A DNA stretch of 64,000 nucleotides from a virus, in IMG/VR virus record IMGVR_UViG_3300028812_000003, positions 1 through 64,000 of that record; one strand, given 5' to 3'. Positions 2,923 through 61,869 of this stretch are shown piece by piece. Both the position numbers and the translations under genes were made by a program. Each line of letters opens with the position of its first letter. Position 1 is the first letter of the stretch. Under the pieces are notes generated by a model, which worked only from the letters and a program-made list of their open reading frames with translations, ran no database searches and was not told where the DNA came from.

Positions 2923-3522
2923 ATGTGGCACACGAACATCGGAGTGGCGGACCCCGACGGGGCCGTGCGGACGGCCTTCCCCACACGTACCTTCTTCACC
3001 GGGGCTGGGGCATTGGGCGAAGTCGCCGACTTCACCCCCGCGCAACACCTCCAGGGGGTCGCAGCCCATGAACTCGGGCACTTCCTCGTCAACTGGAGGC
3101 TGGGCGCCCGGATGGCCCGCATCTCCGTCCGGGAAGACCCCGGCAACGTCATCCCGAGCGGCGCCGTCTCCTTCGTCCACCCGGACGGCGACACGGCGCG
3201 TCCCGTCCTCGTCGGCGGCGCCGCCGGGGAACGGGCCTACGACATCTGGCTCCGCGAACAGGGTCTGTGGACCCCGGGCCGCGCCGTGTGCGGGGAACTC
3301 CAGGGCGAGTCGGACCGCCGGGCAGCGTTGGAGGCTGACCCGACGATCACGTTTGACGGTGGACCGAACGACTACCGCCGGTTCCAGAACGCGGCCGACG
3401 AGATCCTGAGCGACGTGTGGCCGCTGCTCCTGCGCGGCCTCGGACACTTCACCGACTTCGCCGAGTACACCGGCGACGCGATGTGCGGCCTGCTCGGCAT
3501 CGACAACAACCCGCCCGCCTGA
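2923..3522 (+). CDS. M41 (FtsH)-like zinc metallopeptidase, lone domain
   Basis: 199 residues. The centre carries AAHELGHFLVNWRLG, an HExGH zinc site. It is followed by a strand region and VLVGGAAGERAYD, which resembles the LAGRAAEE segment of the FtsH peptidase domain, and then a helical part with acidic residues that could supply the third ligand. No AAA+ domain or membrane segment is present, so this is a soluble stand-alone peptidase-like protein. It heads a unit with a small Cys protein and a RapZ-like domain. The start follows a consensus leader. Substrate unknown. Confidence 0.65.
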   Translation: MWHTNIGVADPDGAVRTAFPTRTFFTGAGALGEVADFTPAQHLQGVAAHELGHFLVNWRLGARMARISVREDPGNVIPSGAVSFVHPDGDTARPVLVGGAAGERAYDIWLREQGLWTPGRAVCGELQGESDRRAALEADPTITFDGGPNDYRRFQNAADEILSDVWPLLLRGLGHFTDFAEYTGDAMCGLLGIDNNPPA

Positions 3523-3540
3523 CCAAGGAACGAGGAAGCG

Positions 3541-3771
3541 ATGACCACGAAGCACAACCACGCTCCGCGCTTCGGCCAGAAGTTCGACGGCTGCCCGCGC
3601 TGCGACGAGCTGAAGGCAGGTGCCGCGCCGGTCCGCTGGGGCAACGGCCGGACGGAGAGGGGGCGCACCGGCGGCTACCCGACCGACGCCGAGGTCTCGA
3701 ACCACTTCGCTCCGGGCGGCCCGCACGAACGCGGCGCGTGCGGGCCTGTCTGCACCTTCGGGGACTGGTGA
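3541..3771 (+). CDS. small cysteine-containing protein
   Basis: 76 residues with CPRC near residue 18 and two further cysteines near the C-terminus (GACGPVC), a possible zinc site. The start follows GACCAAGGAACGAGGAAGCG. It lies two bases upstream of the RapZ-like gene, so the two are probably co-translated. No family recognised. Confidence 0.6.
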   Translation: MTTKHNHAPRFGQKFDGCPRCDELKAGAAPVRWGNGRTERGRTGGYPTDAEVSNHFAPGGPHERGACGPVCTFGDW

Positions 3772-3773
3772 CC

Positions 3774-4169
3774 ATGACCAAGCCCCGCCCCGGCGCCGTC
3801 CGGATCGTCTCCTTCGGCTACGGCCACGGCGACGCCCCGGCCGCCCACCTGACCCTGGACCTGCGGGCCCACTTCCGGGACCCGCACGTCAGCCCGGCCA
3901 TGCGCGAGCTGACCGCCGCAGACCGCACGGTGCGCCGTGCCGTGCTCGGCACGCCGGGCGTCAAGGCCCTGCTGGCCGCCACGGTGCGCGCCGTCCGGGC
4001 GTACGACGCCGGCCCGTCCGCCCGGGACACCGTCGTCGCGGTCGGCTGCACCGGCGGCCGTCACCGCTCCGCCGTCGCCGCCAACGTCCTCGCCCGACGC
4101 CTGCGCCGTCGGGGCCACGTGGTCACCGTGGAGCACCGCGACCTGCACCGCCCCGTCATCGCCCGCTGA
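3774..4169 (+). CDS. stand-alone RapZ C-terminal domain protein
   Basis: 131 residues. IVSFGYGHG at the start, DLRAHFRDPH, then VGCTGGRHRSA and a final EHRDLHRPV are hallmarks of the C-terminal domain of RapZ/YvcJ. In enterobacteria that domain binds the small RNA GlmZ and an amino-sugar metabolite to control GlmS. The N-terminal P-loop ATPase domain of full RapZ is absent here. The start at 3774 lies two bases after the preceding stop. A regulatory or RNA-binding role during infection is inferred from the fold only. Confidence 0.75.
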   Translation: MTKPRPGAVRIVSFGYGHGDAPAAHLTLDLRAHFRDPHVSPAMRELTAADRTVRRAVLGTPGVKALLAATVRAVRAYDAGPSARDTVVAVGCTGGRHRSAVAANVLARRLRRRGHVVTVEHRDLHRPVIAR

Positions 4170-44003: not shown

Positions 44004-47000
44004 TCACCTCCCCTCGGTGGTGTGGACCCGGCGGGACAGCGCGGTCAGGACGCGCCGGTAGGCCCACTGGTCCAACTCGTCCTCGGTCAGTCCCTCGCTG
44101 AGCTGCGGGATACCCGCCGCGACGAGGGCGAGCTGCTGTCCGGCGGCCAGGGCCGTCTTCAGCTTGGGCACCGGGAAGCCGGGGACGTTCACGGCGAGCA
44201 GGCCGACGAGGCGCAGGTGACCGCCGATGCGACGCCAGTCGCCCGACACCTGCCCGGCCGCGCGCAGCTCGTGGATGCGCGACTCCGGGGTGCCGGGCCG
44301 CACGGACCCGGCGACCCAGATGCCGTGCGCGTCGTTGCCCACCGCGACGTCCGCCACGGCGGCCCCGGTGTTGTCGTAGTGGTCAGCGGCGGCCCGGTGG
44401 CCGTACGACAGCGGCGCGTGCCCGGTGCCGACGGTGATCTGTCCGACGGAGGTGGTCCCGCCGTCGTCGCACCACACGTTGCCGGTCATGAAGTACGGGT
44501 GCGACTCCTCGTGCGGAGGCGTCACGCACACACCCTCCTGCCCGATGTGACAGGTGCCCCACAGGGCTGCGTGTCCGTAGACGCGGCCCTCCGGGGTGAC
44601 GGTGATCCCGGTCGGGACGGACAGGGCCGGGCTGGCGAACCACGCGGCCGGCGGGCGCTGCGGCGCCTGCACCGTCAGGGACCGGAAGCGGGCCACCCGC
44701 GTCTCGCGCACCGCGCCGATGGGCTCGCCGCCGGCGACGACCGCGCCGTCCTCACCCAGCAGCGCGATGTACGCCTCCGCGAACGCCGGGATGTCCACGA
44801 GGGTCGCCGCGCGGATGCGGCCCCGGTTGAACACGACCTTCTCCGGGGACGCGAACAGCATGTCGAACGGGTCGGGGCCCTCGCCGTCGGCGTCCGGGTC
44901 TGCGGGCCACACCAGTTCCATGTCGGCGTCCTTGATGGAGTCGACATCCACGCTCACACCGCGCAGGAACTGGCCCTTGATTTTCCCGTGGACGGTGCGG
45001 CCGTCGTCGGTGGACAGGTCCAGCACGCCTTCGCCCATGATCAGGCCGCCGTCCTCGCGCCAGATGCGGTCGATCCGGCCCACGTTGACGGCGATGGTGC
45101 GGGGCTCCCCGCCGTGGGAGTCCTCCTTGTTCCAGCGCAGCGGCAGCGGCAGGTCAGCCCACGTGAGGGCGTCCGCCTTGAACTCCCGGCCGTCGCCGGT
45201 CTCGATACCCTCCACCGTCAGCGGGCCACGCCACGGCGCCGTCTCGCCGTCGGCGCCTATCTCCGCAGCCGGCTTGCCCGCCACCCGGTCGGCGTCGGCA
45301 GCCGCGCCGTGCGCCAGCGCCTCGGCCTGCCCGGCTGCCTTCTGCTCGCCGACCGGGACGCACTCGCCGCTCTCCTCGTCCGGCTCCATGCCGGGCGGGC
45401 ACTGCGCCTCCTCGCCGGCTGCCGACTGGTTCTCCTTCAGCCGCTTGTCCTTCTTCGTGCCGGGGTTCGGCTCGCCCTTGCCCAGGGCCTCGGCCGTCTC
45501 GGTCGCGCTCGTCACGGTGCTGTCTCCCTCCGCCGCGTACAGCGCGGCCAGTTGATCATCGGCGTCGTCTTCGGTTGCGTGGCAGCCGGACACCGATCCG
45601 TCGGCGTCCTTGACCACGGCCCACGGCTTGCCGTCCGGACACCCAGAATGGCCCTCCACTTTGTGCCAGGGCATGCCGGTCTCCTCTCCGCTCGCCGTGG
45701 TCGCCGTACGTACCTCCTGCCAGACGGCGACGATGAAGCCACGGCAGGCGTTGCCGTAGCGGGCGCCGGTGCAGTCCCGGTAACCCATGACCGGGTACTC
45801 CGCGACGGCGGCGTCCAAGGTGGTGAAGGTGCGGCCGTCGATGACCTTGCACGGGCCGCACGTCCGGCTGTCCAGGATCTCGCTCGCCACGTAGGTGGAG
45901 GCGGGCGGCGCGGCCTCCATCACCGCGTGCCGCCCGGCGTTCTGCGCGGCCGTCATGGCCGAGCCGACCGAGGCGCGCACCCCGGCGTCGTCCATCGTGG
46001 CCAGCTCCCGGTCCACCTCCGCCGCCACCGTTTCTGCCGGGGCCGAGGACCGCAGCAGCCCGGACAGTTTCCGCTTGGCCGCCTGCACGAGGGCGGAGGC
46101 TGCGAGGTCGGAGGTGAGCCGGGCGACGGAGGTGAGCAGTCGCCGTCCGCCGACCCCTGCGGTGAGTACGTCGGGGCCGTCGCCGTCCTCGGGCAGCGAC
46201 CAGTCCGGCACGGTCACGCCCTGCGCCTCGGCCTCCCGTTGGCAGGCCCTGCCGGCCTTGACCGCGTACTCCTCCATGAGGCCGGTCAGGGTGGCGGTGG
46301 CGTCCAGGGTGGATAGCGTCAGGTCCGGCAGCAGTTCAGGGTCGTCGGCGGCGAGGTGCTTGACGATCTGCTCGCGCAGATCCAGGCGCCACGCGGCCGT
46401 CGTGGACTTCAGCGCTTGGACCGCCCCGGCTGTCGCGGCCTCCCACTCGGCGTGTACCGACGCGAAGTCGGCGCGGCTGGACAGCTCCAGGTCGGTCGGC
46501 TCCCGGCGCAGCGGCCCGCCAGCGGCCGTCACCGCGTCGCCGGACAGCGGGATGTCCCGGTCGTCATCGCCGAAGCTGAGCCGGATGCGGTCGAACGTCA
46601 CCGGGCCCAGCCGCTGCTCCAGTTCAGGCAGGAGCGCCGGGTCGTCGCTGTAGGCAGCGCAGACGTGCGCGGCCCACGGGCTGTGCTGCTCGGGGATTTC
46701 CGGGAGGTCCATCGTCATGGTGAGTGCGGTCCCAGCCAGAACCCGGGCTTCCACGAGGGAGCCGCCCGCAGGCTCTGCATCCCGATCGTCGCCGACGGAC
46801 CACACCCAGCACGGGTAGTCCCCGCCGCCGTTCCAGTGAGCGGCGCCGAACGCCCTCGCTTGTACGGTCGGCAGCCCCGCGACGAGATTCCTTACTCGGC
46901 TCTCCAGCGTGTCGCGCTGGTCCTCGGTCCAGGTGGCGCCATCGTCTCCGAGGAAGAACAGCGTCAGGTGCAGTTCGTCAGCCGGCTCGCCGCCGGGCAC

Positions 47001-47198
47001 CGCGAGGCGTTCGGCGTCCTCGGCCGTCGGCATGAGGGCGATCATGCAACCCTGCGTGTGCGAGCCGTCGGCAGCGGCCGTCAGGACTGGTGGGTGCGGG
47101 TGAGACTGCCGACGGACCACGGCCACGGCGTCCGGCGGAAGTTGCCCGCGCAGCAGGTCCCCACCCTCGTTGACTTCCACCTCAGCGTGCTGCTCCAT
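44004..47198 (-). CDS. 2H phosphoesterase-like + MuF + prohead protease fusion
   Basis: 1064 residues. About 70-210: ELHLTLFFLGDD and later WAAHVCAAYSDDPALL resemble the two His motifs of 2H (LigT-like) phosphoesterases, the second having Cys in place of Thr/Ser. About 250-490: helical MuF minor-head region ending in CGPCKVIDGRTF and CRGFIV. About 500-560: SGCPDGKPWAVVKDADG repeat-like module. About 640-1000: protease section (LRGVSVDVDS; HAALWGTCHIGQ). Minor head and maturation protease are fused in many actinophages. The 2H piece is the odd part. Overlaps portal by 17 bases. Confidence 0.8.
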   Translation of the reverse strand: MEQHAEVEVNEGGDLLRGQLPPDAVAVVRRQSHPHPPVLTAAADGSHTQGCMIALMPTAEDAERLAVPGGEPADELHLTLFFLGDDGATWTEDQRDTLESRVRNLVAGLPTVQARAFGAAHWNGGGDYPCWVWSVGDDRDAEPAGGSLVEARVLAGTALTMTMDLPEIPEQHSPWAAHVCAAYSDDPALLPELEQRLGPVTFDRIRLSFGDDDRDIPLSGDAVTAAGGPLRREPTDLELSSRADFASVHAEWEAATAGAVQALKSTTAAWRLDLREQIVKHLAADDPELLPDLTLSTLDATATLTGLMEEYAVKAGRACQREAEAQGVTVPDWSLPEDGDGPDVLTAGVGGRRLLTSVARLTSDLAASALVQAAKRKLSGLLRSSAPAETVAAEVDRELATMDDAGVRASVGSAMTAAQNAGRHAVMEAAPPASTYVASEILDSRTCGPCKVIDGRTFTTLDAAVAEYPVMGYRDCTGARYGNACRGFIVAVWQEVRTATTASGEETGMPWHKVEGHSGCPDGKPWAVVKDADGSVSGCHATEDDADDQLAALYAAEGDSTVTSATETAEALGKGEPNPGTKKDKRLKENQSAAGEEAQCPPGMEPDEESGECVPVGEQKAAGQAEALAHGAAADADRVAGKPAAEIGADGETAPWRGPLTVEGIETGDGREFKADALTWADLPLPLRWNKEDSHGGEPRTIAVNVGRIDRIWREDGGLIMGEGVLDLSTDDGRTVHGKIKGQFLRGVSVDVDSIKDADMELVWPADPDADGEGPDPFDMLFASPEKVVFNRGRIRAATLVDIPAFAEAYIALLGEDGAVVAGGEPIGAVRETRVARFRSLTVQAPQRPPAAWFASPALSVPTGITVTPEGRVYGHAALWGTCHIGQEGVCVTPPHEESHPYFMTGNVWCDDGGTTSVGQITVGTGHAPLSYGHRAAADHYDNTGAAVADVAVGNDAHGIWVAGSVRPGTPESRIHELRAAGQVSGDWRRIGGHLRLVGLLAVNVPGFPVPKLKTALAAGQQLALVAAGIPQLSEGLTEDELDQWAYRRVLTALSRRVHTTEGR

Positions 47199-49023
47199 GA
47201 CCGCTCACCGCCCTCGGCCGCAGGGACGTAGAGATCATCGCCGTGGTGTCCGCGTAGGGGCTGCGGCCGTCCAGCACCAGGCGGCCGAAGGCGTCCAGGT
47301 GGCACAGGTAGGTCCCGCTGCTCCCGGGCCGTGCCGACGGGGCCGCCGTGGCGACCGCGTGCGTGAACGGACAGGAGTACTCGTGCTCGCCGCACAGCGC
47401 GGGGTGCAGCAGTTCCCACCGGCCGGCCGCGCCGACCCGGAGCATGTGCTGTGTGCGCGCCTGCTGGACGAGGAGCCGCGCCCGCTCCGCTGCCGCCGCC
47501 TGCGACGGGGGCCCGGTCTCGTCCTGCGTCGGCGGCGGCTGGTCGCCCTGCGGGGCCGGGCGGTCGGCAGGGCTCCCGGACGTCTGCTCGCCCGCAGGCG
47601 GCGGGGTGTTGCCCTCCTGCACTGCCTCGGCCGTGCCGGGGTCCTGCGGGGAGACGGGGACGATCTGCGGGACGTCCTCGCCAAGCAGTTGCGCGAGGGC
47701 GGACGCGGCGCCGGACGGCAGCGTGCGGATGATGGTCTTCAAGGCCAGGTTGCGCAGCTCGTCGCCTTCCGGCTTGTCGGACTCGCCGAAACCAAGTTCC
47801 CGGCGGTACGCCTCGGGCGACAGCTCCATGCGGTCGTATGCCAGCGTCGCGTTGCCGCTGCGGTCCGGGCGCATGGCCAGCTCGCTCATGTCGTACCAGA
47901 CGACCCACGCGGCAGGGTCCTCGCCGGACGCCTCCAGCCGGGGCTGGAGGTAGCCGCGCGTGAGGGCGTCGCAGATCAGTTCCGCCACCGGGGCGATGTG
48001 CGTCTTCAGCGCGCCCTCTTCGAGCTGCCAGGCGCCCCAGTGGTTGACGTCACCCATGCCCAGCAGGATCTCGGCGGGCATGTCCAGCTTGGTGGCCAGA
48101 CGCTTGATCGCGCTGTCCCGCTTCTCGATGATCTTTTCGTCGATCTTCAGGGTGAAGTCGATGTGCTTCACCTTGTCGATGGCGTCCGCCGGACCGACCA
48201 GCGGGATGGGGACGACGGCGGAGGCGGTGCCAGGGTTCTGGATCGCGGTGGCGCTGATCTCGATCCACTCCGCCATGAGCGGGTTGGGCTCGTCGGCGAA
48301 CTCCTCGCGTACCGGGAAGGTCAGTTCGTCCGGCAGCAGGACGAGGCCGGCCGACGCCAGGCGGGACAGGTACTCAGACGTGATCTTCCGGTTGACCAGC
48401 TCCAGCTCGCGCATGATGTCCCGCGCGCTGCGGGCCGGGGAGTCGGCGAGGTGGAAGTACCTGTCGTGCGGACGCCAGACGCGGACGACGTGGTGGTCCG
48501 GCGCGAGGTCCCGCCAGTCCTGGCCGGTGGTCGCCGACTCCTCGTCCATCACCTGGTACTTGCCGGACTGGACGCGGATCTCGTCCACGGACCGGACCTG
48601 CCAGCGCTCCACCTTGCCGTCCTGCTCGCCGACCAGGTAGCCCTCACCGGGGAGGGAGAGCTGCACCGTCAGGCGGCGCATGAGCTGGGCCTGCCCGGCG
48701 ACCCCTCCGCCGAGGCGCATCATCAGGTCAGCGGCCGTACCACCGGTGACGATCTCCGGTTCGTCGCTGTCCGGCTGGAGCCTGGCGGCGCGCAGGCGTA
48801 CCCGGGACAGCATGTTGCTGAGCCACCAGACGCCGTAGTTGAACTCCCCCAGGCTCTCGTGGAACTGCCAGACCTCTTCCTGCCAGCGGTCCGTGCGGCG
48901 CAGGAACTTGGTCTCCGGGCCGGGTGGCTCTGCTGCGGCGGCCGTCAGCGCCTCGGGCTGCGGCGCGGGCAGCGGGGAGGGGTGGGTGACACCTCGTCCC
49001 CGGAATACGTCGTACCACGGCAT
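47182..49023 (-). CDS. portal protein
   Basis: 613 residues. FNYGVWWLSNMLSRVRLRAA, PLMAEWIEISATAIQNPG and KLDMPAEILLGMGDVNHWGA are portal signatures (crown and stem helices). The C-terminal 130 residues are Pro/Gln-rich and then Cys-containing (CGEHEYSCPFTH), probably a flexible tail. Forms the dodecameric DNA gate and terminase dock. GGGGAGGTCCGC precedes the ATG. Confidence 0.9.
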   Translation of the reverse strand: MPWYDVFRGRGVTHPSPLPAPQPEALTAAAAEPPGPETKFLRRTDRWQEEVWQFHESLGEFNYGVWWLSNMLSRVRLRAARLQPDSDEPEIVTGGTAADLMMRLGGGVAGQAQLMRRLTVQLSLPGEGYLVGEQDGKVERWQVRSVDEIRVQSGKYQVMDEESATTGQDWRDLAPDHHVVRVWRPHDRYFHLADSPARSARDIMRELELVNRKITSEYLSRLASAGLVLLPDELTFPVREEFADEPNPLMAEWIEISATAIQNPGTASAVVPIPLVGPADAIDKVKHIDFTLKIDEKIIEKRDSAIKRLATKLDMPAEILLGMGDVNHWGAWQLEEGALKTHIAPVAELICDALTRGYLQPRLEASGEDPAAWVVWYDMSELAMRPDRSGNATLAYDRMELSPEAYRRELGFGESDKPEGDELRNLALKTIIRTLPSGAASALAQLLGEDVPQIVPVSPQDPGTAEAVQEGNTPPPAGEQTSGSPADRPAPQGDQPPPTQDETGPPSQAAAAERARLLVQQARTQHMLRVGAAGRWELLHPALCGEHEYSCPFTHAVATAAPSARPGSSGTYLCHLDAFGRLVLDGRSPYADTTAMISTSLRPRAVSGHGAAR

Positions 49024-49140: not shown

Positions 49141-49227
49141 CACACCCCTGCGCACCCTGACCCGAGGAAGTCGGGGAACTGCGCGCACCATACGCGCACC
49201 AGGCCATATCGCCTACTCCCACAGCAA

Positions 49228-49255
49228 AGCCCCGGAACCCGACGGTTCCGGGGCT
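49228..49255 (-). terminator. 12-bp hairpin after the graspetide ligase
   Basis: AGCCCCGGAACC pairs perfectly with GGTTCCGGGGCT, 13 bases beyond the ligase stop on the leftward strand. It isolates the cassette from the late operon. Confidence 0.75.
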
Positions 49256-49267
49256 CAGCGGGCGGCC

Positions 49268-50275
49268 CTACGCGCCGGCGGAACCCCGCTGCCACGCCGC
49301 CCCGGAAGACGCGCGGTGGCCGCCTCCCGGGGTGTAGACGCGGGTGGCGAGCGCGGTCTGGACGAGGTGGTCGGAGACGGCGCGCGAGATGACCATGCCG
49401 GTCGCCGCCTCCACGAACCCGAACTGGCCGAACGGGTTCGCCTCCAGGAACCACCACGTGCCGTCACGATCGACGGCGAAGTCCAGCGCCGCGTACTCCA
49501 GGCCCAACGCGTCCATCAGCCGCTGCACCTTCTGGACCAGGGGCAGGCTGGCGCCCACGGCCTCGAACCGCAGGTCCCGCTCCGGGGCGGCCCGCCAGTC
49601 CAGCGCGCCCCCGGAGGTCACCTTGCAGGGGAACGCGCGGTCGCCGACCACGGTCAGCCGGACGTCGTACACCTTGTCCACCGGCCGCTGGAGGTAGCAC
49701 ACGGCCTGGCGCACGCTGTCGGCCGCGTCCTCGATCTCCTCGGCCGTCGTGAGCCGGGCCTGGACGAACCGGGACGGGTGCGCGGTGAGGGTTTTGCACA
49801 CCGCCCGGCCGCCCTGCTCCCGGGCGAACGTGACGGCACGGCTCGGGTCGTTGGTGAACAGGGCGGGCGGCGTGCGTAACCCGAGCGACGCGGCCAGCCG
49901 CAACTGCCTCGGCCCCGGCCTCGCCGACAGGGCGCGGTGCGGGTGGTTGACCCACAGCACGTCGTCGAGACCGAACAGGAAGTCCTCCAGGATGACGCGG
50001 GACTCCTGCTGCTCCCACCCGCCCGGCAGGCCGGGGTGCCACCAGAGAACCGACACGACCGACTGCGACAGGGTGGACCGGTGCGCGTCCGAGAGCGTGA
50101 ACCGTAGCGGCTCGCCGTCCGAGAGACCGGTCATCGTCAGGACCCCCGGGCGCGCGAGGTCCGACGGGTCGACGCGGTGGATGGAGACGCCGCGTTCCTG
50201 AATCTGCCGTATCACCATGTCGGCCCCGAGGTCGCCGGGGGAGGTGACGACAAGCACGGTGGGTGGGAGCGGCAT
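49268..50275 (-). CDS. ATP-grasp peptide ligase (graspetide maturase, TgmB/SAV_5884-type)
   Basis: 335 residues. N-terminal Rossmann-like part (VLVVTSPGDLGADMVIRQIQ) with SVLWWHPGLPGGW, typical of this maturase group. The ATP-grasp core includes GGRAVCKTLTAH (lysine for ATP), QRPVDKVYDVRLTVVG and LDFAVDRDGTWWFLEANPFG with the E-x-N metal site. These enzymes join Asp/Glu side chains to Thr/Ser/Lys side chains in a precursor peptide. The gene starts two bases after the precursor stop. No O-methyltransferase gene is adjacent, unlike many chromosomal relatives. Confidence 0.85.
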   Translation of the reverse strand: MPLPPTVLVVTSPGDLGADMVIRQIQERGVSIHRVDPSDLARPGVLTMTGLSDGEPLRFTLSDAHRSTLSQSVVSVLWWHPGLPGGWEQQESRVILEDFLFGLDDVLWVNHPHRALSARPGPRQLRLAASLGLRTPPALFTNDPSRAVTFAREQGGRAVCKTLTAHPSRFVQARLTTAEEIEDAADSVRQAVCYLQRPVDKVYDVRLTVVGDRAFPCKVTSGGALDWRAAPERDLRFEAVGASLPLVQKVQRLMDALGLEYAALDFAVDRDGTWWFLEANPFGQFGFVEAATGMVISRAVSDHLVQTALATRVYTPGGGHRASSGAAWQRGSAGA

Positions 50276-50277
50276 GA

Positions 50278-50550
50278 TCAGTCGTCGTCCTTCTTGAGCC
50301 CGGTGGAGTTGTGGGTCATGGTCGGTCCGACCAGCGCGGGCGTGGCGTCGGCGAAGTCGTCGTCCCGCTTGAATCCCTTGTTGTTGTGGGTCATGGTCGT
50401 GGCCCAGACGTCGGCGACGTCCACCACGGCGTCGCCGGCCGGGGTGATGTTGAGCTGGCGCAGCCGGTCGTACGTGTGCGCCGGCGTGCGGTCGGTGGGC
50501 GGCTCCGGGTCTGCGACGAGGAGTGCGAACGGGGTGAGGGTGGCGGTCAC
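50278..50550 (-). CDS. graspetide precursor peptide with two tandem cores
   Basis: 90 residues. The leader (1-45) has MTATLTPFALL and a YDRLRQ segment, like ATP-grasp target RiPP precursors. Two cores follow 25 residues apart: T52-M-T-H-N-N-K-G-F-K-R-D-D-D65 and T77-M-T-H-N-S-T-G-L-K-K-D-D-D90. Thr and Lys can act as acceptors and the DDD run as donors for ester/amide crosslinks. GTG start after GAAGGAACAGACT. Adjacent ligase supports the assignment. The mature product and its role are unknown. Confidence 0.8.
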   Translation of the reverse strand: MTATLTPFALLVADPEPPTDRTPAHTYDRLRQLNITPAGDAVVDVADVWATTMTHNNKGFKRDDDFADATPALVGPTMTHNSTGLKKDDD

Positions 50551-50632
50551 AGTCTGTTCCTTCTCGTGTAGGGGCCGAGCCTAGCGCCGGGTGGACGCCG
50601 GGCCGTGGGAAGAGGTCAGGGTGTTCCGGGGC

Positions 50633-51928
50633 TCACAGCCGCGCGGACACCCGCTCGCGCAGGTCGGTGACGGCCGGCGAGTCGGGGACGGACGGCAGTC
50701 GCGCGGCCACGGTGGCCAGGCCGTCGGAGATCTTCGTGGACTGCACGCCGGCGGAGCACGTCAGGAAGTCGTCCCAGGTGTGCAGCGCCTGCGCGGTGTT
50801 GCCGCGCTTGAGCTGCACGTGTCCCAGGTCGGCGAGCACGATGGCCCGCGTGCGCTTGCGGTCCAGGCCGTGAATGTCCAGTGCCAGGTTCAGGTGCTCC
50901 TCGGCGGCGGCGAGGTCACCGAGCCGGGCGTGGATCATCCCGGAGTCGTGCGCCCACCGGCCGTGGCTGTAGTGCGACGCCCACGACTGCCCCGGAGCGG
51001 ACGGGGCGTGCTCCATCGCGCCCTGCGCGGCGGACAGCAGCCGGGCCGCCGTGGCGCGGTCGCCGTCGGCCGCCTTCGCCCGCGCGAGGGTGTTGCGGTA
51101 GTAGGCGAGCGCCTTGGGGTTGTCCAGCCGCCGGCCGCGCTCCTCGCACGCCTCGGCCAGCCGCACCGCCGTGGGGATGTGCCCGAGGTCGATGGCCTGG
51201 TCAGCGAGCCCGCGCAGCGCGGTCGCCGCCAGCTCGTTCTCCCCGGCCTCGGTGGCCAGCCGTACGGAGTGGACGAGGTAGCGCTGGCTCAGGCCCACGT
51301 TGCCCTCGTCCCGCGCCATCCAGCCGATGAGGTGGACCAGTTCGGCGGTCGCCGCGAACAGCTCCCGGCCCACGGCTGCGGTGTACCGGCCGTCCAGCCA
51401 CCGGCGTACGTCCTCGGTCAGGTAGCGCACGGCGAGGTGCCGCGCGTGTCCGCCGCCCAGTTCCGAGGCCGCGTCCCCGAGGGTGCCGGTCATGGTGCGC
51501 ACGGCGGCCACCTCGCCCATGCCGACGGCCGCCGGGCCGGACCGGGCCACGCGCCGGGTCACCGCCTCGGGGTCCGGGAGGTCCAGGGCGGCCAGGCCCG
51601 CGCCGGCCGAGGCGGCGAGGAACGTCCTCCGGTTCACGTCGTCTCCCCCAAGGGTCATGACCGAGGTCACCGTGTCGTCCGGGCCGGCGGTCACTTCCGC
51701 AGCACCGCGAAAGTGATCCTGGAGGGCGACGCCCAGCGCCTGTTCGATGTAGGGGAGCCAGTCCACCGGGATACGCCGGCCGGTCTCCCACCGGTAGACC
51801 TGCTGCCGGTCGCAGTGTCCCCGCCGTCCCCAGCGCAGCTCCGATAACTGGTCCGCGAGGGCGGCCTGGCTGCACCGTGGGGTCCGGGCCTCCCGGGCGG
51901 CGCGAATGCGTTCGCCGATTGTCGACAT
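50633..51928 (-). CDS. XRE-family regulator with TPR-like C-terminus
   Basis: 431 residues. N-terminal HTH (ERIRAAREARTPRCSQAALA then QQVYRWETGRRIPVDWLPYI), a linker with DVNRRTFLAASAGAGLAAL, and a helical-repeat C-terminus of about 280 residues (ARLLSAAQGAMEHAP; LGDLAAAEEHLNLALDIHGL). This architecture is common in Streptomyces regulators beside RiPP and conjugation genes and often senses a peptide. It lies upstream of the precursor in the same direction. The ATG at 51928 follows GACCGAGGAAGAC. Confidence 0.8.
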   Translation of the reverse strand: MSTIGERIRAAREARTPRCSQAALADQLSELRWGRRGHCDRQQVYRWETGRRIPVDWLPYIEQALGVALQDHFRGAAEVTAGPDDTVTSVMTLGGDDVNRRTFLAASAGAGLAALDLPDPEAVTRRVARSGPAAVGMGEVAAVRTMTGTLGDAASELGGGHARHLAVRYLTEDVRRWLDGRYTAAVGRELFAATAELVHLIGWMARDEGNVGLSQRYLVHSVRLATEAGENELAATALRGLADQAIDLGHIPTAVRLAEACEERGRRLDNPKALAYYRNTLARAKAADGDRATAARLLSAAQGAMEHAPSAPGQSWASHYSHGRWAHDSGMIHARLGDLAAAEEHLNLALDIHGLDRKRTRAIVLADLGHVQLKRGNTAQALHTWDDFLTCSAGVQSTKISDGLATVAARLPSVPDSPAVTDLRERVSARL

Positions 51929-51960
51929 GTCTTCCTCGGTCCTGGTCACTGGTCTCTGGT

Positions 51961-52905: not shown

Positions 52906-52943
52906 GATGAATTAATTAAACCATGACCTTGCGGAGAAGACAA
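52906..52943 (-). promoter_or_regulatory. leftward promoter/operator element copy 14
   Basis: On the minus strand TTGTCT, 13 bases, then CATGGTTTAATTAATTCATC. Orientation matches the downstream leftward gene. Confidence 0.75.
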
Positions 52944-54084: not shown

Positions 54085-54123
54085 GATGGATTGATTAAAT
54101 CATACTCGCGGGCCGAAGGACAA
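54085..54123 (-). promoter_or_regulatory. leftward promoter/operator element copy 15
   Basis: On the minus strand TTGTCC, 13 bases, then TATGATTTAATCAATCCATC. Confidence 0.75.
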
Positions 54124-54179
54124 CCCGGAGCGGAGGATGCCACGGAACCCGGCAGCCGCAGAATCGCTCTGGGCGAAGC

Positions 54180-54197
54180 GCAAAACGTGTGTTTTGC
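54180..54197. promoter_or_regulatory. 18-bp perfect dyad upstream of recombinase
   Basis: GCAAAAC-GTGT-GTTTTGC. Symmetric and lower in G+C than its surroundings, 38 bases before the recombinase start. Either an operator or part of a recombination site. Confidence 0.55.
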
Positions 54198-54234
54198 AGG
54201 AGCCGGTCGACGGGCCCCGGTAGGCTCATCGCCC

Positions 54235-55335
54235 GTGACGATCATGACCCCGGGACCCGGAACGCTCGCCGCCGACGACCCGGCGCTGCGCACCGTCATG
54301 ACCCTGCGGGACCGGTTGGGCACCGTCGCGCCCCGTGACCCGAGGACGCGCCGGCTCGGGCCGCGCGTACACCGGCTGGACCTGCTGCACCAGTTGTGCG
54401 AGCGCGAGACGTTCGGACACGTCTGCGGGTGGCTGTCCTCCGAGCGGTTCACCTCCGACGGCACCCGGCGCGAGTACGCGGACGACGTCCGGCACTGGGC
54501 CCGCGCCGGCCGGGAGTTGGTGGGCACCGAGCCGTGGTACCTCGGGGCGATCACCCCGGACGTCATCCCGCACTGGCGCGCGTGGACCGACGACATCAAG
54601 CTGGGCTCCCGCCGGGTCAACCGGCTGTGCTCCTCGCTGACCTCGCTCATCGAGTACACCAAGTTCCGCACCCGGCTGGACATCGTCAACCCGATCACCC
54701 GGTACGACCGGCCGGTGATCGACCAGCACGACGAGACGGCGATGACGCCGGTCCTGGAGGTGGAGGAGTTCCAGGCCGTGGTGGAACAGGCGGCCACGGC
54801 GCGGCAGGCGTTCGTCCCGGTGCTCATCTACACCCTGGCCGGGCGGGTCTCCGAGTGCTGCGCGGCCGACCGGCGGGACATCAGGTCGGTGGGCGGCGAG
54901 TGCAAGCTGGACCTCACCCGCAAGGGCGGCAAGGGCCGCGTGTTCACCCTGCCGCCGCTGCTGTGCGAGCTGGGCGCCCGGTGCTGGGACGGACAGGAGT
55001 CCGGGCCGCTGTTCCTGGACGACGAGGGCCGGCCGATGGACCGGCACGCGGTGGACCGGCTGCTGAACCGCCTCGGCCGCGCGGCCGGCGTCCTGCCCGG
55101 CCGGGACCTCACCCCGCACGTGCTGCGCGCGAGCAAGCTCACCCACATGTACGACGAGGGGCAGAAGGCGCAGGACGGGAAGCCGACGCCGGACGACATC
55201 CGGCGCTTCGCCGACCACAGCCACCTGTCCACGACGATGCGTTACATCCGCCGCCGCGACGACGAGGCGCTGAAGCGGACGCACGCGGCGGCGGCCGTCC
55301 GCGTGTACGAGGGCCTGGTGGACCGGTTCCTGTGA
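54235..55335 (+). CDS. tyrosine recombinase (integrase/Xer-like)
   Basis: 366 residues. The N-terminal core-binding part contains RREYADDVRHWARAGRELVG. The catalytic part has YTLAGRVSECCAADRRDIR (first Arg), TRKGGKGRVFTL (Lys strand), LTPHVLRASKLTHMYDEG (H-x-x-R) and FADHSHLSTTMRYIRRRD (His and Tyr nucleophile). Such enzymes integrate prophages or resolve plasmid dimers. GTG at 54235 lies nine bases after TAGGCT and lacks a Shine-Dalgarno, so a leaderless mRNA is likely. No tRNA attachment core is visible nearby. Confidence 0.85.
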   Translation: MTIMTPGPGTLAADDPALRTVMTLRDRLGTVAPRDPRTRRLGPRVHRLDLLHQLCERETFGHVCGWLSSERFTSDGTRREYADDVRHWARAGRELVGTEPWYLGAITPDVIPHWRAWTDDIKLGSRRVNRLCSSLTSLIEYTKFRTRLDIVNPITRYDRPVIDQHDETAMTPVLEVEEFQAVVEQAATARQAFVPVLIYTLAGRVSECCAADRRDIRSVGGECKLDLTRKGGKGRVFTLPPLLCELGARCWDGQESGPLFLDDEGRPMDRHAVDRLLNRLGRAAGVLPGRDLTPHVLRASKLTHMYDEGQKAQDGKPTPDDIRRFADHSHLSTTMRYIRRRDDEALKRTHAAAAVRVYEGLVDRFL

Positions 55336-56047: not shown

Positions 56048-56085
56048 CTTGGTTTGATTAAATCATCCCGAGGTCGTTGTCACAA
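56048..56085 (-). promoter_or_regulatory. leftward promoter/operator element copy 16
   Basis: On the minus strand TTGTGA, 12 bases, then GATGATTTAATCAAACC. The distal half of the dyad is degraded and runs directly into the leader. Confidence 0.6.
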
Positions 56086-58308: not shown

Positions 58309-60513
58309 TCACCCGATGGAGCGTGTCGCCGAGGACAGACCGCCGGCCACGGCAATGCCGGTCATGGTCGCCTTCACGATCCGCTGGTGCCAGGCCGGCC
58401 AGACCATCGCGTCCAGACGGTCCGGACTCCAGTCCAGCTCGTCGTACCAGGTGCACATCTGGTCTTCCAGCTCCGGGTGCTCCCCCACCATGTGCCACCG
58501 GCCCTGCTCCGAAAGGGCGCTGACCGGCTCCGCGCGGACCTTCTTCCCCCTCGTCGCCCGCACGACCTTGATGGGGATGCGCACGCCCAGGGCGTCGGCC
58601 GCCGCGCGGATCGTGTTGACGGCCATGTCCCCGCCGAAGTTGACCTCCACGCAGATGTCGTCCGCCTCGTGGTCGACGGCGGCCTGCACCGCGCGGCGGC
58701 CCCAGCCGTCCGGGGAGAGGTGGCACGACCTGTCGGCGAGGACGTAGCCGTGCGCGAGCTGCGTCGGGCGGCCGTCGGCCCGCACGTGCTCCTGCACCGC
58801 CTTGCCGACGACGACGATGCCCTGTTCGCCCCGGCCGCCCGACGGGTCCACCCCGACGGAGATCCGTGCGAGGTCGGGCAGGTCGCTCGGGCGCACCCGG
58901 TGGTCGTCGATCATCGCGCGGTTCCACAGCGCGTTCTCGTCGGCGTCGATGATCTCCGCGTGGAGTTCCTGCCGACCGATCTGCGTGCCCGCATAGGCGT
59001 CCTCCAGCGCGGCCCGGATGTCTTCGGGCAGGTGGGGGTTGTCGTACATGGACGCGTGCGTGCGCACGACGTTGCCCACACCGCCGGCCGCGAGTTTCTT
59101 GATCAGGGCCCGGGGCTTGGGGGTGGTGGAGGCGATCCAGTGCGGGCGTGGGCCGACGCGTAGGCCGAACCGCATCTGGTCCCAGGTGTCGTCCAGGTAG
59201 CGCCACGCGGCCAGCTCCTCCAGCCACGCAAGGCAGTTGGAGACGAGCAGGCCGCCCGCGAAGAACTCGTGATCGTGTTCAATCGTCAGGTCGTACACGC
59301 GCACGGCGCGACTGGTACGCGAGGACCGAAGTGCACCGGCGCGAACAAGTGCGGGTCGGGTTCCGGCGCTGGCACTCGAACGCGTCGCCGCACACGCCGC
59401 ACACCCGCTGCTCCCGTGCTCGTGACGGAGCAACAGCCTCCCGGCAGGCTCCGGGGCAGTACCGCGCTCCGGTCGTCCCTCGGGAGCGGAAGACTGCGCC
59501 GCACCGCTGACAGGTGAAGTCCCGGTATTCCGCGCGGTCCCAGGTTGCCCGGCCGCCCTTACGGTGCCAGTCCTCTCCGCGCTCCTCGCCGTGCTCGTGC
59601 CAATGCTGGCCCGGCGCGAGCAGCACGAAGTTGCTGACCCGGTTGTCCCGCTTGTTGTGGTTGCGGTGGTGCACTTGCATGCCTGCGGGGATCGGACCGA
59701 CCTCCCGCGCGTACATGTACCGGTGCAGCAGTCCGTGCCGCGTGCTCCGGTAGTAGTCGTCCGGGCCTGCATGCCAGGTGACGCCGTCGTACCGTATCGA
59801 ATCCCCGTATTTCCCCATGTAAAGATTGTCTCCGTTGGCTGAACGAGCGAAACCGGCTTCCAGCCGTCGGCCGTCGCCACCTTGTGATCCGGCGTGAGCC
59901 ACGTGGACCCCGCGTCGTGGTCGTAGCGCACGACGTCCTTGATGCCGTTGTCCCAGGCCGCCAGAACCTCTCGCAGGCCGTTGCGCGTCCACACGCGGTC
60001 CCCGGGCCGGATGGTCTCGATGGGTCTCTCTCCGTACTCGGTGCGCACCAGGGTGCCCTCGGCCACGCACCGGTTACCGCCGGACCGCAGGCGCTCGATG
60101 TCCTCCGGGCTGTGCGCGCCGAACACCTTGGCCTCGCTACCGTTGGGCCACTTGATGATCGTGCCGCCCTGGCGGGTCGTCATCTTCGCCTCGGGGCTGT
60201 GCACCCGCAGGCCGGACGGGCCGGCGTAGCAGGACGTCGCCGCGTCGCCGAGGGTGGGCGCGATGATCCCGATCCAGTGCGGGATGGGACCGGGCAGGCA
60301 CGGCGGGCCCATGACGTGCTCGTGGACGTACCGCGCGCACGCGTCGGTCTTCCCGGCGCCTCGCCCGGCCAGCAGCAGCCATCCGTACCAGTCGCCGGGC
60401 GGCGGGACCTGGTGGGGCAGCGGAGTCCAGCGCGGCTCCGTCAGCGTCCGCGCGTGCATGAGCAGCTTCTCCGCCGCGCGGCTCCTCAGCCTCGTGTCCG
60501 CCATGCCCGCCAT
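58309..60513 (-). CDS. terminase large subunit interrupted by an intein
   Basis: 734 residues before splicing. Walker A LLAGRGAGKTDACARYV in the ATPase part. After the intein come WLEELAAWRYLDD (Walker B region), GVDPSGGRGEQGIVVVG, CVEVNFGGDMAVN and DRLDAMVWPAWH, the nuclease acidic residues. Packages DNA into heads. The start at 60513 lies after an upstream hairpin, although the frame is open to 60756. The intein spans 59236-60069. Its middle third reads as Thr/Ser/Arg-rich sequence in this frame because an HNH ORF occupies another frame. Confidence 0.85.
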   Translation of the reverse strand: MAGMADTRLRSRAAEKLLMHARTLTEPRWTPLPHQVPPPGDWYGWLLLAGRGAGKTDACARYVHEHVMGPPCLPGPIPHWIGIIAPTLGDAATSCYAGPSGLRVHSPEAKMTTRQGGTIIKWPNGSEAKVFGAHSPEDIERLRSGGNRCVAEGTLVRTEYGERPIETIRPGDRVWTRNGLREVLAAWDNGIKDVVRYDHDAGSTWLTPDHKVATADGWKPVSLVQPTETIFTWGNTGIRYGTTASPGMQARTTTTGARGTDCCTGTCTRGRSVRSPQACKCTTATTTSGTTGSATSCCSRRASIGTSTARSAERTGTVRAAGQPGTARNTGTSPVSGAAQSSAPEGRPERGTAPEPAGRLLLRHEHGSSGCAACAATRSSASAGTRPALVRAGALRSSRTSRAVRVYDLTIEHDHEFFAGGLLVSNCLAWLEELAAWRYLDDTWDQMRFGLRVGPRPHWIASTTPKPRALIKKLAAGGVGNVVRTHASMYDNPHLPEDIRAALEDAYAGTQIGRQELHAEIIDADENALWNRAMIDDHRVRPSDLPDLARISVGVDPSGGRGEQGIVVVGKAVQEHVRADGRPTQLAHGYVLADRSCHLSPDGWGRRAVQAAVDHEADDICVEVNFGGDMAVNTIRAAADALGVRIPIKVVRATRGKKVRAEPVSALSEQGRWHMVGEHPELEDQMCTWYDELDWSPDRLDAMVWPAWHQRIVKATMTGIAVAGGLSSATRSIG
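59236..60069 (-). other. intein (278 codons) in terminase
   Basis: Starts at Cys (CVAEGTLVRTEYGERPIETI, block A), has WLTPDHKVATADGW (block B) and ends HDHEFFAGGLLVSN before the +1 Cys of the extein. The penultimate residue is Ser rather than the usual His. Insertion lies between GGNR and CLAWLEE, next to the Walker B strand of the ATPase. About residues 80-260 of the intein are compositionally aberrant in the terminase frame. Confidence 0.8.
59279..59818 (-). CDS. HNH endonuclease nested out of frame in the intein
   Basis: 179 residues. AGMQVHHRNHNKRDNRVSNF followed by LLAPGQHWHEH is an HNH motif. Two Cys-pair knuckles follow (CQRCGAVFRS...CPGACR and CGVCGDAFEC...CSRRC). The ORF is in a different frame from the terminase, begins at an ATG (59818) with GGAG upstream, and stops inside the intein's C-terminal block. 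It would act as a free-standing homing endonuclease. Alternatively two compensating indels separate it from the terminase frame. Confidence 0.7.
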   Translation of the reverse strand: MGKYGDSIRYDGVTWHAGPDDYYRSTRHGLLHRYMYAREVGPIPAGMQVHHRNHNKRDNRVSNFVLLAPGQHWHEHGEERGEDWHRKGGRATWDRAEYRDFTCQRCGAVFRSRGTTGARYCPGACREAVAPSRAREQRVCGVCGDAFECQRRNPTRTCSRRCTSVLAYQSRRARVRPDD

Positions 60514-60545
60514 TGTCGGCTGCCGGGCGGCGCGCGGTTTCCGGA

Positions 60546-60589
60546 GCACGACGAGGCCCGCACCGGACGGGGGTGTCGGTGCGGGCCTC
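60546..60589 (-). terminator. 13-bp hairpin terminator
   Basis: CGAGGCCCGCACC pairs with GGTGCGGGCCTCG, just upstream of the terminase start. It separates the terminase from the hydrolase unit. Confidence 0.75.
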
Positions 60590-60616
60590 GGTGGTGCAAT
60601 GCAGACGGCGGCGAGT

Positions 60617-61869
<1,253 letters not shown>

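Follow-up and report, generated by a model that had tools for sequence, protein, structure and literature searches.

Graspetide ligases bind the leader of a precursor peptide, activate aspartate residues of its core with ATP, and link them to side chains that carry a hydroxyl or an amine. In the prunipeptin type (PruB, PDB 9BOU; tgmA and tgmB), two genes encode a TIGR04187-type ligase and a precursor with a single core of the type TTTSTAGSKTHFDD. The graspimiditides (fuscimiditide and amycolimiditide; group 13) are actinobacterial ATP-grasp graspetides with Thr-Asp esters (PMC12291112), and a two-core, divalent fuscimiditide has been engineered (PMC12291112). Plesiocin and thuringinin carry several cyclised core repeats per precursor (PMC12291112). 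A large hidden diversity of cores on related leaders has been described by Makarova et al. (PMC8939145), so that a core of a new kind is no surprise by itself; the main text of that paper does not contain the word "phage". A survey of actinobacterial prophages found small biosynthetic clusters in 0.6% of elements and named lanthipeptides and type III PKS (PMC10023795), and a literature search whose reach excluded most subscription papers found no paper on phage graspetides.

The window analysed here, a stretch of 64,000 nucleotides, comes from a virus record of 76,514 bp (IMGVR_UViG_3300028812_000003), an incomplete contig. It contains a cassette of two genes that is like the prunipeptin type in gene number, in its related leader, in its TIGR04187-type ligase, and in cores that are comparable in length and have T-x-T, Lys and, at the end, Asp residues. 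It differs in being phage-borne, in a ligase of a separate clade that is 32-39% identical, and in its precursor, which has two tandem cores with THN and DDD and not the single TTTSTAGSKTHFDD-type core, with STAGS...HFDD, of the prunipeptin family. It is unlike the graspimiditides in its different core and in the lack of a PIMT-type methyltransferase in the phage record, and unlike plesiocin and thuringinin in core motif and enzyme clade; its two-core precursor is natural, in contrast to the engineered fuscimiditide.

Phage-borne graspetide cassettes are not unique to this lineage, and graspetide ligases are not confined to bacterial chromosomes, from which graspetides were said to be known in the preliminary description: ligase relatives are common on plasmids (76 plasmid records), and in Leptospira phage vB_LalZ_80412-LE1 (KF114876) a precursor with several cores directly precedes a ligase of the graspetide type, with a ParB-like gene nearby. 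The Leptospira phage and its host are unrelated to those described here, its cores are of the form TKT...DD, and its precursor is unannotated. That precursor (L157:2655-2972; also L112) has three cores, LQTKTFTQRESDDEE, LVTKTDTIREVDDDM and LLTKTEENKEQDE, and the ligase (2968-3936) is annotated as RimK-like; a relative of the pair with 67% DNA identity was noted in viral contig L107. Two viral-classed contigs of 77 and 199 kb (L086 and L087), putatively phage, share identical 13-kb stretches that encode a cassette of the prunipeptin type, with core TTTSTAGSKTHFDD and a ligase of 37% identity. In an unverified faecal contig labelled as phage (MT835913; L156:2404-2955), an ORF that resembles a multi-core precursor lies just ahead of a ligase of the graspetide type.

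Organisation of the cassette and its carrier

The features of the window that bear on the cassette are as follows.
47182..49023, minus strand: portal protein gene, downstream of the cassette
49225..49257, minus strand: terminator-like hairpin TGAGCCCCGGAACCGTCGGGTTCCGGGGCTTTG at the cassette end (from sequence and folding)
49265..50626, minus strand: cassette segment that is missing in relative L126 (from comparison with L126)
49268..50275, minus strand: putative graspetide synthetase (ATP-grasp ligase), 335 aa, with E278-x-N280, D265 and K161 and a tail predicted to be disordered
50278..50550, minus strand: predicted graspetide precursor, 90 aa, with leader (residues 1-50, PFALL motif), core 1 (52-65), linker FADATPALVGP and core 2 (77-90)
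50281..50322, minus strand: precursor core 2 (from sequence)
50356..50397, minus strand: precursor core 1 (from sequence)
50623..50635, minus strand: the upstream one of two TGAGCCCCGGAAC copies, located at the stop codon of nsdA; it pairs with 49245-49257 as a direct repeat around the cassette
50633..51949, minus strand: NsdA-family HTH-TPR regulator, directly upstream of the cassette (from profile matches)
52912..52922, minus strand: promoter-like element GGGGTTGTC...GGTTTAATTAA, the copy nearest the cassette
54091..55335, plus strand: tyrosine integrase (temperate lifestyle)
58309-60756: large terminase gene

The pair of open reading frames first noted in the preliminary description is present on the minus strand with 2 bases between precursor and ligase, the precursor starting at a GTG codon just 3' of a ribosome-binding-site-like GAAGGA. 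Its placement between portal and terminase genes was also correct, and the interval from cassette to terminase holds, in addition, a regulator, small and accessory genes, the tyrosine integrase and a holin. The terminator given there as the boundary is plausible: a hairpin with a 13-bp stem (-35 kcal/mol, z -5.4) lies just past the ligase stop codon, but its T run is short. No protease, exporter, tailoring enzyme or immunity gene was found within the cassette, and, as first described, no O-methyltransferase adjoins it; TIGR04188 (PIMT-type O-methyltransferase) had no match in the window's record, in G003 or in G004, of which G003 looks complete and the other two are fragments. Near the portal gene, a 1064-aa virion protein (44004-47198) combines an RNA-ligase/2H-phosphoesterase-like N-terminal part with Mu-F-like and head-protease-like parts.

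The carrier, first described as a siphovirus, belongs to a lineage of temperate phage-plasmids of Streptomyces, and the window is a fragment of such an element; with regard to the siphovirus label, a tape-measure homologue was found. Partition and replication genes accompany the virion genes: homologues of ParB and of the primase occur in the window's record, and ParA in the contig of Streptomyces sp. NRRL S-455. The closest annotated relative, pS1D4-14.2 (NZ_CP041606), is a Streptomyces plasmid of 98.8 kb on which virion genes occur together with those for ParA, ParB, a P4-type primase and an integrase; it belongs to the same lineage, with a portal protein 74% identical and a similar gene order, but has no ligase, and XRE and PH-domain genes occupy the slot. 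The ends of two other contigs of the lineage are identical over 99 bp (NRRL S-455) and 127 bp (L127), which fits circular molecules; no such overlap was seen in the S. africanus contig. The extrachromosomal state is thus documented for relatives of the window's phage, by the plasmid and by these end overlaps.

Identity of the ligase and the precursor

The ligase matches TIGR04187 over its full length (E 1e-70) with 238.3 bits, and its L130 counterpart with 242.7 bits; because the curated cut-off of 350 is not reached, it is a relative and not a formal member of this GRASP_SAV_5884 subfamily. All six matches in a sequence search of the PDB are graspetide synthetases, led by 9BOU (E 2.8e-38; PruB of S. 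coelicolor, the name being that given in the structure search), with PsnB matching weakly (E 1e-9). In a profile search six graspetide synthetases rank above RimK and LysX, and Foldseek matches 1-32 of an AlphaFold model (mean pLDDT 83) are graspetide synthetases, followed by RimK. A RimK-type or other ATP-grasp identity was rejected on these sequence and fold rankings, and alignment with unrelated ATP-grasp families, which had been named beforehand as the outcome that would speak against the graspetide reading, is not what was found. The E-x-N site first described as intact is present as E278-x-N280, and K161, R206, D265, E278 and N280 are invariant in 19 of 19 aligned ligases. A C-terminal tail, VYTPGGGHRASSGAAWQRG (residues 312-335; 49268-49342), is predicted to be disordered; among the phages it varies less than the rest of the ligase, and the chromosomal enzymes inspected lack it.

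In the ligase tree the phage enzymes, 32-39% identical to chromosomal ones, form a clade (support 100/100) on a stem of 1.09 changes per site, placed weakly beside the prunipeptin-type chromosomal clade, where the tree tool warned that long branches meet. The best chromosomal ligase in a sample of 247 Streptomyces genomes reaches at most 174 bits, versus 737 bits for a phage copy. The phage ligases therefore look like an old phage-specialised branch, and a recent capture from a Streptomyces chromosome was rejected on this sample of 247 genomes.

The precursor has, as claimed, 90 residues, a leader, and two cores 25 residues apart: TMTHNNKGFKRDDD (residues 52-65) and TMTHNSTGLKKDDD (residues 77-90). 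Four further phage precursors keep both cores at a spacing of 24 or 25, by which a chance repeat was ruled out. All ten cores of the five phages have [TS]xTHN, two Ser/Thr, at least one Lys, and DDD, so that the THN and DDD residues, whose conservation had been named in advance as a test, are kept throughout; the Gly at core position 8 is lost once, in core 2 of L128. The leader is homologous to those of chromosomal Streptomyces tgm precursors with TTTSTAGSKTHFDD-type cores, each beside a TIGR04187-like ligase, and its PFALL agrees with the Phhx(1,2)h motif described in PMC8939145 in four of the five phages, L127 being without the Pro. The claim that the core is unlike known ones holds in that the core is new, but it is related to the common Streptomyces prunipeptin-type core. 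Against TIGR04186 (GRASP_targ) the precursor scores 20.6 bits and its relatives 16-21, so that both models proposed for a check in the preliminary description were matched, but each below its curated cut-off (25 bits for TIGR04186).

The genome searches covered samples, of 393 Streptomyces and 396 Actinomycetota genomes for the precursor. A precursor match at E <= 0.01 was obtained in 162 of the 393 Streptomyces genomes (NRRL S-455 included); at the 29 loci inspected besides that of NRRL S-455 it extended over no more than the leader and the region of core 1, and beyond NRRL S-455 the full two-core precursor was found in none of the sampled Streptomyces and Actinomycetota genomes. A tblastn search of plasmids with the precursor gave no match, and the two-core DNA pattern, searched in viral contigs with one codon choice for core 1, was found solely in known members of the lineage.

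As far as sequence can tell, the following is established: a graspetide-type ligase, a tgm-type leader and two tandem cores, in five phages, with presence or absence at one site. In all sequence features open to testing, the cassette agrees with the graspetide class, and it lies outside the curated limits of TIGR04186 and TIGR04187. The interpretation in the preliminary description is partly supported: the graspetide reading passes the two sequence-based refutation tests of the three named there, and expression in lysogeny, superinfection exclusion and prophage signalling are conjectural.

Distribution, exchange and regulation

The co-occurrence of the two genes in other actinophages, proposed as a check, was found in four more phages of the lineage, which carry the cassette at ~80% identity (ligases 78-84% identical): L127 (92,595 bp), L128 (NRRL S-455; 95,726 bp), L130 (95,700 bp) and L135 (S. 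africanus; 92,743 bp). Because IMG/VR contigs may include host flanks, a contig was taken as a carrier solely if it had virion genes of this lineage; L004/L125 is the window's own phage from another record. The cassette is absent from L126, L129, L131, L133, L136 (the sequence of pS1D4-14.2) and L138, relatives in which the site is covered, and its presence is scattered on the portal tree. Between L126 and the window, homology ends just past the nsdA-like gene and resumes just past the ligase, with a different 328-bp segment between. In the window, one copy of TGAGCCCCGGAAC lies at the stop codon of nsdA and a second forms the left arm of the hairpin that follows the ligase, and thus a 13-bp direct repeat flanks the cassette; movement by recombination between terminator-like sequences is plausible.

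The regulator upstream of the site is exchanged as well, being of the NsdA family in the window, L126 and L127, GntR-like in L128 (the one assigned by Pfam), L129, L130, L131, L135 and L138, and XRE in L133 and L136. In L126 (9323-9655), L127 (8653-9018) and L131 (8761-8997), the cassette slot holds, beside or instead of the cassette, a small-protein family (~80 aa, ending ...DGLW..E.EA.D.LAR), whose genes in L126 and L127 each have a promoter-like element and a terminator to themselves.

A promoter-like element, GGGGTTG(T/C) followed after ~17 bases by GGTTTAATTAA, has 12 matches in the window versus 0 expected, and looks like the mark of a phage-wide regulon. Copies were noted at 1988, 2874, 6783, 10191, 11297, 13511, 15606, 19870, 22330, 52912 and 56051, before many small genes, the copy at 56051 being without the upstream GGGGTTG part on that strand. 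A variant of the element lies directly upstream of the precursor in L127, L128 and L130; it was not found directly upstream of the window's cassette, and the window and L135 share GGCGCTAGGCTC at that place. A dyad, GTTGCGTGCATCACACAAC, ahead of GGTTTAATTAA at L127:7265, L128:7985 and L130:7551 and missing from the window's copies, is perhaps an operator. Because the cassette is absent at the same site in near relatives and stands behind a variant of the element in three phages, it resembles a phage moron, that is, an extra transcription unit that relatives lack at the same site. It is very probably a working two-gene graspetide cassette, borne as an exchangeable moron by a temperate Streptomyces phage-plasmid lineage, to judge from these comparisons.

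Predicted product and its possible roles

Every core has two Ser/Thr near its beginning and a triplet of Asp preceded by one or two Lys, from which two to three links would be expected in each core and at least four in the whole peptide. The ligase would bind the leader, phosphorylate the side chains of Asp in DDD with ATP, and join them to the hydroxyls of the Thr/Ser at core positions 1 and 3, and perhaps also to the Lys that precedes DDD. The result would be a single peptide with two prunipeptin-like domains, each cyclised on its own. About two water molecules, and no more than three, would be lost per core, which makes roughly four for the peptide. Removal of the leader and release would fall to host proteases and exporters, since none are encoded. 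More speculatively, the product would be made while the phage resides as a plasmid, would benefit the lysogen, and would target other cells or secreted or host proteins rather than phage assembly.

The product may, at less than even odds, be a secreted antagonist or protease inhibitor that helps the lysogen to compete. Microviridins, the best-studied graspetides, are serine protease inhibitors (PMC9826346), and temperate phages that carry biosynthetic weapons are a familiar theme (Dragos 2021, as cited in PMC10023795), but the cassette has no dedicated exporter, protease or immunity gene. A role inside the lysogen, in superinfection exclusion or against other phages, as with the intracellular lanthipeptides of Streptomyces (reviewed in PMC12360287), is a little less likely again. 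That precedent comes from another RiPP class, and the position of the cassette, in an accessory slot of a resident phage beside swapped regulators, would suit such a role. So would the lack of an exporter, but this carries little weight because chromosomal relatives are also compact, and PADLOC matched no defence model to the cassette or to the neighbours tested. An annotation as antiviral defence was dropped for this last reason.

It is very improbable that the two genes are chromosomal RiPP genes acquired by chance and now decaying as passengers without a product. Their distribution is patchy and their NCBIfam scores lie under the cut-offs, as such an origin might predict, but the reading frames are open in five phages at ~80% identity, a promoter-like element and a terminator are retained, and the ligases form a separate clade on a long stem. 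The dN/dS of the ligase among the phage copies is 0.16-0.27, on which decay of the cassette was rejected, and the ligase is, on this comparison of sequences, intact and under purifying selection. The cores of the precursor (pN 0.12-0.17) are more constrained than the linker (0.27), with synonymous change throughout. Equally slight is the chance that the ligase modifies a phage or host protein in the manner of RimK or a glutamate ligase, with the repeat peptide acting unmodified as a small regulatory or inhibitor protein, for which the weak match (1.5e-9) to PHROG 2599, whose members are named ribosomal protein S6 glutaminyl transferase, could be cited, but sequence and fold both favour macrocyclases over RimK, and in the lineage phages a leader-bearing precursor with conserved Thr/Lys/Asp cores always adjoins the ligase.

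With the graspetide reading retained, it is on balance somewhat probable that this phage-plasmid lineage evolved its own graspetide clade, in which a two-domain THN...DDD peptide under the phage's own promoter network serves residence in Streptomyces, and that, together with the Leptospira cassette, it represents a recurring strategy of resident phages. The virus appears to bring its Streptomyces host a natural product of its own, a predicted cross-linked peptide with two copies of a new core. With five homologues, cassette-free relatives and carrier strains (Streptomyces sp. NRRL S-455 and S. africanus NRRL B-24243), what a graspetide does for its carriers is directly testable, and the natural two-core precursor is a ready bivalent scaffold.
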